A stretch of DNA of 64,000 nt from NCBI GenBank assembly GCA_027451445.1, contig DAIDJG010000117.1, forward strand, positions 1 to 64,000, in the 5' to 3' direction. Below are positions 52,423-63,129 of the stretch, piece after piece (the first letter of the stretch is position 1; every line of letters starts with the position of its first letter). The stretch comes from Singulisphaera sp. GTDB taxonomy: Bacteria; Planctomycetota; Planctomycetia; Isosphaerales; Isosphaeraceae. Below the pieces are notes generated by a model. It had not been told where the DNA came from. It saw only the letters and a program-made list of their open reading frames with translations, and searched no databases. Made by a program: the position numbers and the translations under genes.

Positions 52423-52449
52423 GGGCCAGCGCGGTCAGCGCGCTGGCCC
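52423..52449 (+). terminator. intrinsic terminator-like hairpin after aldo/keto reductase
   Basis: GGGCCAGCGC and GCGCTGGCCC pair perfectly around a 7-nt loop, 16 bases after the stop codon. The stop codon of the integrase frame on the other strand (52435-52437) falls inside this hairpin. This shows that the end of that frame is chromosomal, not element, sequence. Confidence 0.7.
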
Positions 52450-53991
52450 GTTGTCCACTCCATCATTTCGAGCGTCCGGTTCCACGCCAAGTCGGGTTGT
52501 GTGGTGGTCGTGCGCCCTGCGATAGGCCGGAATTGAATCCACGCTCGGCCCAAAAACCGCCTTGCTCATCCCCGACGACCCCGCTACCATGATTCCTCCG
52601 GCGCCGTCGCCAAGTGGTAAGGCAGAGGTCTGCAAAACCTCCACCGCCGGTTCGAATCCGGCCGGCGCCTCTTTCCCGTCACATTCCGACACTTCCCGCC
52701 CGTTGCCGCTAAGTACCGTCTCTGGTAACGACTTAGGGCAAGACACATTCGAGCCGTTCGGCTTTCCCTCTGAGTCGTTGTCCGTCACTGTCGGGCTTTG
52801 TCCGGGACTGTCGTGCGGCAATAGGGCGGCAAAGCGATCGTTGATATGATCGGGTGGCATTGGCAAGGCCGCCGGAATCTGGGGAAGTTTCTCCAGCGCC
52901 TGAGTCTGATCGTCCGCCTCCATGTGGTTCGCGTAAAGGTCCATCGTGAGATTGATGGATGAGTGACGCATGAGGGTTTGCGCGACTTTCGGCGATACTC
53001 CGGCCCGCGCCAATTCGGTCCCAAACCGATGGCGAAGCGCGTGAAAGTCGCGGTAATTGCCAGTCTTCTCGACGTACGACAGTCCGGCCCGCGTCAGATC
53101 GGCTTCAAGAATGAAAGCCGCACGCTTCCACCACGGCCCTGCCCAGATCAACTCCGTCGATTCGATGCCTTCCAGGTACGCCCGCAGTAGCTTCGCAAGA
53201 TGAGGGTGGATTGGTTGGGCTGCCTTCTCCCGGTTTTTCGTGTGGGCCGCCTTGACATGAATCGTCGCCTGGCGCTCGTCGATGACGATCGAGCCAACGG
53301 TCAAGCTCGCGAGTTCGGAAGCTCGTAAGCCCGTATAAGCCGCCGTAACGTACAGCATTGCCCGGTCTTCACCAGTCAGCTTGCGGAACACTCCGGATGC
53401 CATCGTTGAGCGAATGAGGGTTTCGAACTCATCACGACTGAGCACCGATCGAGCATGGCGCGGATCGAGCTTGACGTTGAGCGGTTTTAGCGTCGTAAGT
53501 GGGTCAAACGCTAGGCGACGATGATCTACGGCCCACCGAACGAATGACCTGAGACGGGTCAGGTAGTGGTTGCTCGTCTGCGCCGACATACCGGGGATTT
53601 TCTCCTCGGTCTCGGGGTCTACGGTGGGTTGTCGCTGGGATTCGAGCCAAGCCGCAACCTTGACCGCATCTAGCTCGCAAAGCCGTTCGGCCCCCACCCC
53701 CGAAATGACCGCGCGCAGGCGCGTCTCCGTCTGAGATAGATGCTTGGGCGAACAGTCACCGGATCGTAGAAAGCCCAGATACTCGGCCAAGTGCTCTTCA
53801 ATCCCGGTCTTTTGATGCGAGGCGATGGGGTTGGCTTGGCCAAGTCGAACCTTAGCGGCGTGCACTTCGGCTTCCCTGGCCATACTCTCGGTTGCTTTCT
53901 TGTCTCGACATCCCTTCTCCTCTCTCTTGTTCCCGTTCCCGTCAACGTATTGGAAATAATAGATGCTTCCGCGTTTCCGAATGTAAGCCAT
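52435..53991 (-). CDS. int: tyrosine integrase of the element; C-terminus altered by integration
   Basis: 518 codons. The start MAYIRKRGSIYYFQYVDGNG at 53991 has GAGGTG 5-6 bases upstream. An N-terminal SAM-like core-binding domain is followed by the catalytic domain, with Arg in TAAYTGLRASELASLT, HxxR in DFHALRHRFGTELA, and His and Tyr in LMRHSSINLTMDLYANH. After ~residue 430 the frame runs through the antisense of the 48-bp repeat/tRNA (EAPAGFEPAVEVLQT) and then through chromosomal DNA to a stop in the neighbour's terminator. The last ~65 residues (SALPLGDGAGG onward) are therefore not native. In the excised circle the same frame would continue into the tail at 62938-63129. Confidence 0.93.
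   Translation of the reverse strand: MAYIRKRGSIYYFQYVDGNGNKREEKGCRDKKATESMAREAEVHAAKVRLGQANPIASHQKTGIEEHLAEYLGFLRSGDCSPKHLSQTETRLRAVISGVGAERLCELDAVKVAAWLESQRQPTVDPETEEKIPGMSAQTSNHYLTRLRSFVRWAVDHRRLAFDPLTTLKPLNVKLDPRHARSVLSRDEFETLIRSTMASGVFRKLTGEDRAMLYVTAAYTGLRASELASLTVGSIVIDERQATIHVKAAHTKNREKAAQPIHPHLAKLLRAYLEGIESTELIWAGPWWKRAAFILEADLTRAGLSYVEKTGNYRDFHALRHRFGTELARAGVSPKVAQTLMRHSSINLTMDLYANHMEADDQTQALEKLPQIPAALPMPPDHINDRFAALLPHDSPGQSPTVTDNDSEGKPNGSNVSCPKSLPETVLSGNGREVSECDGKEAPAGFEPAVEVLQTSALPLGDGAGGIMVAGSSGMSKAVFGPSVDSIPAYRRAHDHHTTRLGVEPDARNDGVDNGPAR
52600..52670 (+). tRNA. tRNA-Cys (anticodon GCA)
   Basis: 71-nt cloverleaf. The acceptor GGCGCCG pairs with CGGCGCC. The D arm is GCC..GGC. The anticodon stem GAGGT/ACCTC encloses loop CTGCAAA with anticodon GCA. 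The T arm is GCCGG TTCGAAT CCGGC and the discriminator is U. CCA is not encoded. Everything from 52627 on belongs to the attachment-site repeat, so the 3' two-thirds of the gene is now supplied by the element and function is kept. Confidence 0.95.
52627..52674 (+). repeat. attL: left 48-bp direct repeat
   Basis: Identical to 63130-63177. It begins in the anticodon stem of tRNA-Cys and runs 4 bases past the tRNA end. This is the usual target type of tyrosine integrases. Confidence 0.93.
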
Positions 53992-54028
53992 CGTCGCACC
54001 TCAAAGCCCGTCGAACCTATCCCGCCCG

Positions 54029-54235
54029 TCAAGCCACCTGTCCCGACATCCACTTGCGAATCGTCTCAGCCTTCCATCGTGGCATCTTGCCCACCATGAA
54101 ATCAGGTTTGGGAAGCCGGCCCGCCGCGCGTTGCCGTTCAACCGTCCGCCGGCTTGCGTTTAAGACCGTCGCCAGGTTGTCGAGAGAAAGAGTTGTCTCG
54201 ACCGCTAAGCCGTTCGAGTTCACTGCGCTGTGCAT
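54029..54235 (-). CDS. small helix-turn-helix (excisionase/AlpA-like) protein
   Basis: 68 residues from ATG 54235 (a TTG at 54253 is possible). The sequence LSLDNLATVLNASRRTVERQRAAG followed by LPKPDFMVGKMPRWKAETIRKWM is the layout of MerR/AlpA-type recombination directionality factors. It lies 37 bases upstream of the integrase on the same strand, which fits control of excision. Confidence 0.8.
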   Translation of the reverse strand: MHSAVNSNGLAVETTLSLDNLATVLNASRRTVERQRAAGRLPKPDFMVGKMPRWKAETIRKWMSGQVA

Positions 54236-54292
54236 TGCGATTCCCGTTTGCAAGAGTGACCACGTGAATCAACGCATACCAGTGTAACGCAG

Positions 54293-61927: not shown

Positions 61928-62337
61928 TCCGCGCAACGGATTCCGAACACGCCACTCACGCGACCAGTGCGCCGGCAGAGGTTTGGCGGCAACGGATTCG
62001 CGACCGTGCGAAGGAACTGCACATCAACCATTCCGCTCTCGGCCGAATGATTGGCGTAACGCCGGGTAGAATGAGCCTATGGGTAGGCCCCAAAGCGCAG
62101 GGATACCCGCGTCCGTCTGACTGGATTGCGCTCTCGCGAGCGTTGCGGTTACCGCTCGAACGACTTATGGATGACAACTCGATTGCAGCCCCCGCGTTCG
62201 ATCTTTCGCCGCAAGAGACCCTGATCATTCAGCTTGTCCGGGTGCTTGGATCTGATGAGGCACTGAGACGGCTTTACGCGAAGAATCCGGACAATAGCGG
62301 ACTCACAATTTCCGCAGATACTCACGTCCGACCTTGA
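61924..62337 (+). CDS. XRE-family HTH regulator
   Basis: 137 residues. The lambda-repressor-like HTH is RAKELHINHSALGRMIGVTPG, RMSLWV, then DWIALSRALRLPLERLM. The C-terminal ~50 residues (LSPQETLIIQLVRVLGSDEAL) form a second helical part. It starts inside the previous gene's stop (ATGA). It is probably a regulator of the element. Its 3' end overlaps the convergent gene by 35 bases. Confidence 0.85.
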   Translation: MIRATDSEHATHATSAPAEVWRQRIRDRAKELHINHSALGRMIGVTPGRMSLWVGPKAQGYPRPSDWIALSRALRLPLERLMDDNSIAAPAFDLSPQETLIIQLVRVLGSDEALRRLYAKNPDNSGLTISADTHVRP

Positions 62338-62686
62338 ACGCTTCCCCTTTGTACGGGCCGGATTCCACGGTGACGCTAATCTTGCGAAGCTGGGAGAGAT
62401 AATTCGTATCTGTGATCCCCGGATAGTTTTCATCGTGGGTATCCTTGGAGTAGTAGGAACCAGGGTCATGACCAACTGTAACTCTGACGCCGGGATCAAG
62501 CGCCTTGAGCCCATAATCAAATCTGAACCCTTTTTCGCTCGCAATGACCGCCTGATCGCCAGGACGCAGTAACGAGCTTGACGGGTAAAGCGTCGCGCTT
62601 CCGCCACACATCACCGGGTAGTAAGCCAGCGCGCTGATCCCGACGATTCCTGCGCCGACGATTCCCGCAACGGCCCGCTTCTTCAT
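62303..62686 (-). CDS. small membrane-anchored protein of the element
   Basis: 127 residues from MKKRAVAGIVGAGIVGISAL; GGAGC at 9-base spacing supports this start. One N-terminal hydrophobic anchor or signal ends near YYPVMCGGSA; the cysteine could be a lipid-attachment site, but the lipobox is poor. The rest is a small soluble domain (SSLLRPGDQAVIASEKGF, ISVTVESGPYKGEAFKV). Function unknown; possibly an accessory or surface-exclusion type cargo gene. Confidence 0.75.
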   Translation of the reverse strand: MKKRAVAGIVGAGIVGISALAYYPVMCGGSATLYPSSSLLRPGDQAVIASEKGFRFDYGLKALDPGVRVTVGHDPGSYYSKDTHDENYPGITDTNYLSQLRKISVTVESGPYKGEAFKVGREYLRKL

Positions 62687-62937
62687 CGGTCTTGCTCCGT
62701 AGCTCTGTGAATGGTGAATGCTATCTGTGATGCGCACATCTCGAATAACCACGATAACGGATAAGGGAACCAACGTACAGAGCTAAGACCGGCTTTTCGT
62801 GTGCTAACCCATCAAGCGTAATCCGATCGTCTACAAGCCCCGCAGAGACGCTGCGCCAACGATCCCAACGGGAACGGCTTGGCGGCTTGTCGTGAGCCCA
62901 CAGGGCAAGCTAGGCCCCTTGCTCGCGATGGTACGCC

Positions 62938-63129
62938 CTACTCGGGGACGGCGGCCCGAACCATTGCCAGGATGCCAGCGCGAACGGGATCGGGAAGCCG
63001 GTCCCATCGCTCGACGACCGCGACGAGCTCGGGGGGCATCGGACAATCGCCGTACGGCAATGGGACGGCAAAACCGCCGCTGTTTGACGTAAGGCATTGC
63101 CGACAAACGCTTTTCTCGGCCCCGGTTGC
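62938..63129 (-). other. detached native C-terminal tail of the element integrase
   Basis: On the minus strand the frame enters from the right repeat (EAPAGFEPAVEVLQT) and continues ATGAEKSVCRQCLTS ... MPPELVAVVERWDRLPDP ... RAGILAMVRAAVPE, stop. That helical end resembles, from memory, the C-termini of planctomycete integrases. It is in the same frame as the integrase at the left end, so it would be joined to it in the excised circle. Confidence 0.75.

Follow-up and report, generated by a model that had tools for sequence, protein, structure and literature searches.

An integrase gene of planctomycete elements with its attachment site in the 3′ coding sequence and a conserved C-terminal tail on the far side

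The window, a 64,000-nucleotide stretch of a Singulisphaera sp. contig, contains an integrated element bounded by two copies of a 48-bp att repeat, the left copy of which overlaps the 3′ part of a tRNA-Cys gene. The features of the locus are as follows.

52435–52626, minus strand: chromosomal DNA into which the frame of the integrated integrase extends, incidental (open reading frame; relatives share no continuation)
52600–52671, plus strand: tRNA-Cys (GCA), the integration target, whole at the integrase end (ARAGORN)
52627–52674, minus strand: integrase-end copy of the att core repeat, translated in frame as APAGFEPAVEVLQT (exact 48-bp repeat)
52675–53991, minus strand: integrase up to att, with N-terminal part, catalytic domain and linker (open reading frame; PF00589, E 8.2e-19)
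52812–52833, minus strand: putative arm-type site TTTGCCGCCCTATTGCCGCACG within the integrase linker (repeat family D6; position matches that in relatives)
54029–54253, minus strand: small HTH protein, possible excisionase, upstream of the integrase (HTH_17, E 5.2e-5, below the curated cut-off; PHROG excisionase, E 6e-5)
54351–54578, minus strand: Cro/C1-type HTH regulator (HTH_3)
62938–63129, minus strand: integrase C-terminal tail, 63 codons and stop, left behind at the right end when the element integrates (conservation, in-frame join)
62953–63033, minus strand: conserved tail core of 27 residues, PELVAVVERWDRLPDPVRAGILAMVRA (66 distinct copies)
63051–63072, minus strand: putative arm-type site TTTGCCGTCCCATTGCCGTACG between core and tail motif (repeat family D6; +58 nt from the core, as in relatives)
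63130–63177, minus strand: att core repeat at the tail end (exact 48-bp repeat)
63178–63372, minus strand: degraded 3′ remnant of another related integrase, apparently of a tandem element (segments 88% and 81% identical)

The integrase frame runs from 53991 to 52435 on the minus strand and encodes 518 amino acids. A Pfam scan places PF00589 at residues 184–356, which assigns the protein to the tyrosine recombinases of the phage integrase family, and a PHROG integrase match agrees (E 1.9e-46). The initial annotation had described a frame that stays open through the 48-bp repeat and ends in a neighbor's terminator; the stop indeed lies in the inverted repeat that follows an aldo-keto reductase gene. 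Its coordinates for a continuation of 63 codons at the right repeat (63129→62938) also hold. When the circle was reconstituted in silico by joining 53991..52627 to 63129..62938, as that annotation had proposed, the join proved in frame and open, yielding a 518-residue protein that ends in PPELVAVVERWDRLPDPVRAGILAMVRAAVPE before the stop codon. The att core is thus located inside the integrase frame, the arrangement known from phage Mx8, and in the window it falls in the 3′ portion of a tRNA gene. Elsewhere in the element, a small serine recombinase with a Resolvase and a partial Recombinase domain adjoins the tyrosine integrase (54615–55334, minus strand), a 32-nt direct repeat of 84% identity occurs at 54293–54324 and 60272–60303, and a frame of 674 residues (56795–58819, minus strand) matches neither Pfam nor PHROG.

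The right repeat is followed not by plain chromosome but by an integrase relic, a feature absent from the initial annotation. The relic extends from 63178 to about 63372, and its frame is shifted and contains a stop. This remnant of a second integrase beside the right repeat implies that the tRNA-Cys site has taken at least two elements and suggests a tandem insertion there.

The catalytic domain is wholly before att and remains in the 5′ part of the interrupted gene. Beyond the repeat, the frame of integrated copies usually soon meets a stop codon (median distance 27.5 nt, about 9 codons, over 24 elements), and the residues encoded there are not shared. These early stops, together with the lack of shared residues, indicate that the approximately 65 chromosomal residues of the window integrase are an accident of the local frame, and the earlier suggestion that they form a meaningful replacement tail is not supported. 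On these comparisons, insertion truncates the integrase and installs no new domain. Since the integrase record is truncated and its real end is situated 4–35 kb away, gene callers assign a false C-terminus, so that annotated integrases of these elements end in tRNA antisense and host DNA.

The right-end tail is conserved. An initial search with the 64-residue tail as query (E up to 0.1) found relatives in most of the 45 genomes of the family, some matches at this loose limit being unrelated. The tail consensus matches 26 of the 45 family genomes (E up to 0.001), tail matches occur in 94 of the 249 genomes of the class (E up to 1e-4), and the tail profile matches 31 of 294 genomes across the phylum. 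The consensus of 66 distinct copies is PDLAxVVxAWPxLPEAVRAGILAMVRA. In Pfam and NCBIfam the tail matches no family, save for one Pfam match far below cut-off. A single-protein scan of the genome contigs returned no match. Comparison of 21 close pairs gives a pN/pS of 0.38 in frame versus 1.15 and 1.88 in the other frames, values to which the selection of copies by amino-acid pattern contributes by somewhat favoring the first frame; the differences by codon position in the same pairs are 113/69/235. The motif is internal, and the residues beyond it differ in length and sequence and form no ssrA-like end. The proposal that the right-end tail is a conserved C-terminus removed by insertion is thereby borne out by the matches in the class; homologues that end before the repeat combined with an unconserved tail would have spoken against it, and the window's integrase family presents the opposite picture.

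Several other associations of the tail were considered. Weak matches in frames of ~500 amino acids belong to an unrelated conserved enzyme, threonine-synthase-like by inspection. In one genome (L183, G121:C14) the tail and a large serine recombinase's C-terminal region occupy a single reading frame; this single case is located at a contig end, and a link between the two is unsupported in nine other genomes. Separate production of the tail at the right end was also rejected, because inspection revealed no conserved start codon upstream and because this possibility leaves the frame agreement described below unexplained. A clade with a divergent tail, WPxLPPHIVxAILALVR, apparently targets the tmRNA 3′ end (L224, L226 and L103).

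Tails found within 50 kb of a related integrase on one contig are distributed very unevenly: 29 are upstream on the same strand, 2 are downstream and none is on the opposite strand, the layout expected where insertion of a circle has severed a gene. The integrase-to-tail distance is about 4–35 kb. For each pair, att was taken as the longest exact repeat between the region following the integrase domain and the region preceding the tail, chosen blind to frame. Among the pairs of the window's family whose integrase is intact, 24 of 25 give an open in-frame join, a count that includes the window and leaves out one pair with no clear att repeat (G013b). Two pairs with att in the tmRNA 3′ end, assigned by inspection, also join, one of them spanning the record start, as do all 7 of the 7 pairs from other families. 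Overall, joining through the att repeat leaves the frame continuous and open in 33 of 34 testable pairs, the one out-of-frame pair being G010a; the binomial probability of this outcome at a one-third chance is 4.1e-15, which assumes independence and is overstated insofar as elements share ancestry. The frame at att is also preserved in three more pairs, whose integrase is broken. Together with the in-silico circle, these joins uphold the proposed exchange of the integrase C-terminus at att, and they indicate that attP inside the integrase gene is conserved over dozens of planctomycete elements.

The targets include tRNA-Cys, Lys, His, Met, Glu, Phe, Ser, Leu, Arg and Sec genes. Two related elements sit at a tRNA-Sec gene, an unusual target (L206 and L208, in G073 and G082). 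Among the elements, the reading of the antisense core falls in three different codon phases. Three integrases of one clade (support 100/100), all at tRNA-Ser(GCT), use a different phase each (0, 1 or 2) for the same GATTCGAACC, and all three remain in frame with their own tails. In five intact pairs, placed in at least two separate positions of the tree, the core is read in the sense direction. The occurrence of three core phases in one clade and of sense cores at separate tree positions implies that the frame has been re-established repeatedly. On these sequences, shared ancestry alone appears insufficient to account for the frame agreement across att.

In most elements the core is flanked on either side by tandem pairs of a 9-bp unit, spaced 11 or 12 bp. 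With antisense cores the unit pairs are positioned about 140–170 nt before and 58/69 nt after the core; with sense cores this arrangement is mirrored, at 67–80 nt before and 127–190 nt after. Relative to shuffled sequence, the unit counts are above the mean but not always above the maximum, which leaves single sites unproven; the argument for arm-type sites rests for this reason on their constant positions. By this positional evidence the paired repeats resemble integrase sites of the arm type, in which case the entire attP would be coding.

The split arrangement is not universal. Several related integrases have the ordinary layout and stop before their own tRNA (G037, G023 and G001c); G037 and G001c stand apart from the main split groups in the tree, whereas G023 does not. 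The integrase G028x contains a tail-like motif within its own frame with no att between (L228, G028 C2:3190562-3191632, plus strand), and the frames of its sister integrases run on through the target. In its predicted structure the tail-like segment forms two helices, modeled with low to moderate confidence (blocks of pLDDT 56–71); the prediction is not counted as evidence for function. Two natural contiguous frames pass from an integrase C-terminus through the core to the tail (G030:C115 and G013:C493), both integrases being truncated upstream. Long frames containing the tail were checked as unsplit integrases and none qualified; searches of phage, plasmid and viral-contig records for a complete unsplit integrase in circular or episomal form found none.

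Self-splitting integrases are already known from archaeal SSV types, Mx8 and streptococcal serine ICEs (PMC8371274, PMC6070905, PMC4701971). For Myxococcus phage Mx8, later accounts of the work of Tojo (1996) and Magrini (1999) describe attP within the integrase coding sequence near its 3′ end and an insertion that replaces 112 C-terminal residues by 13 (PMC6070905, PMC4701971, PMC4383910). The integrated form is reported to be less active (PMC4701971) and changed in specificity (PMC6070905), and Mx9 reportedly uses a similar principle (PMC6070905, PMC4701971, PMC4383910); Mx8 and Mx9 are the two bacterial tyrosine integrases split in this manner that are named in the open-access papers covered. 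The authors of Islander also note Mx8 and SSV (PMC4383910). Mx8 resembles the window in its tyrosine integrase, its attP in int near the 3′ end, its exchanged C-terminus and its upstream HTH gene, the excisionase gene uoi, which directly precedes the integrase. However, Mx8 is a single phage, whereas the planctomycete family shares one conserved tail among many elements with many tRNA, tRNA-Sec and tmRNA targets and both core orientations. No similarity was detectable between the window integrase and Mx8 Int by pairwise BLASTP (E 4.7) or between the tail and the Mx8 tail by profile comparison (probability 0.3%).

The archaeal suicidal integrases of the SSV1, pTN3 and pT26-2 types also contain attP in the integrase gene, which insertion splits, and like the planctomycete integrases they keep the frame across changes near att (PMC8371274). 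In the archaeal proteins the catalytic part resides in the distal Int(C) and is accompanied by PF16795, whereas the planctomycete catalytic domain is proximal, wholly before att; the Pfam scan of the window integrase gives only PF00589 and no Phage_integr_3 (PF16795). A 2021 review regards self-disrupting recombinases as exclusively archaeal (PMC8371274), a statement that Mx8 and the planctomycete family contradict. The rumA-integrated ICEs of streptococci likewise have att inside the integrase gene and an altered C-terminus upon insertion, but the enzyme is a serine recombinase, the target is a protein-coding gene and not a tRNA, and no shared tail is described (PMC4701971). In the integration-dependent immunity of mycobacteriophage BPs, attP is also located in a coding gene and insertion shortens the protein and alters its activity; there, however, insertion splits the repressor gene, and the part lost is a degradation tag (PMC4557955). 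In the window the split gene is the integrase, and the tail ends vary. Within the open-access literature, what is new here is the conserved tail, the large bacterial family and the direct evidence of selection on the frame across att.

The explanation that we find fairly probable is that of a tRNA-targeting tyrosine integrase whose own 3′ coding sequence contains attP, with the core and, judging from the repeats, both pairs of arm sites, the tail-bearing circle form being competent for integration and the truncated form being reduced or altered in activity. The sequences show that in the circle a single frame encodes the catalytic domain, the linker with arm-type repeats, the tRNA-derived core, further arm-type repeats and the tail. 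Insertion leaves a tail-less, catalytically complete Int at one end and strands the tail at the other. By analogy with Mx8, the circle is likeliest to supply the integration-competent enzyme, in which the tail probably supports assembly at attP × attB. After insertion only the truncated Int could be made; it would retain the arm-binding, core-binding and catalytic parts, and with its reduced or altered activity it may stabilize the integrated state until excision is driven, helped perhaps by the small HTH protein or by a complete integrase in trans. Regulated excision is favored by this HTH gene of the window, which has a counterpart in uoi of Mx8 but is not general, an Xis-like HTH gene being seen by eye just upstream of the integrase in 2 of 13 relatives. 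The continuity of the gene would itself report whether the element is circular or integrated.

The main rival explanation, which we consider unlikely, is that the truncated Int lacks activity, which would make insertion one-way and leave excision dependent on a complete integrase from another copy, as proposed for SSV-type elements. The splitting of the gene, the frequency of decayed and tandem integrases at target sites and the trans-complementation reported for archaeal cases (PMC8371274) agree with this explanation; however, unlike in SSV types, the expressed 5′ part keeps the entire catalytic domain, the window element encodes a possible excisionase, and the truncated Mx8 form is reported to be still active, though less so (PMC4701971). 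It is improbable that the tail instead makes the circle form short-lived and that insertion gives a stable integrase: loss of a C-terminal segment on insertion recalls the BPs repressor (PMC4557955), but the conserved motif is internal, is followed by residues varying in length and sequence, and lacks an ssrA-like end. Still less probable is that arm sites and core fall in an open frame by chance and the peptide past the catalytic domain is inert. Paired repeats do flank the core in coding DNA, and the linker protein sequence is poorly conserved, yet the conserved tail sits past the arm repeats with a coding signature and stays in frame though the core is read in three phases. Coincidental read-through, or adjacent relics of earlier insertions such as the tandem relics at the window site and other sites, is scarcely plausible and, unless the pairing was biased, already refuted by the sequence counts, given the in-frame joins over many targets and families and an orientation that is never reversed.

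The direction of integration is usually credited to separate proteins, whereas in these planctomycete elements the gene itself changes upon insertion. More broadly, and at slightly less than even confidence, the tailed integrases may constitute a phylum-wide bacterial family in which gene continuity acts as a state sensor, an undescribed C-terminal domain present only in the circle controls the direction of recombination, and selection has restored the frame at each change of target or core orientation. With its conserved tail, its many targets and the comparative data that it offers, so large a family makes a testable system of what was an isolated curiosity.
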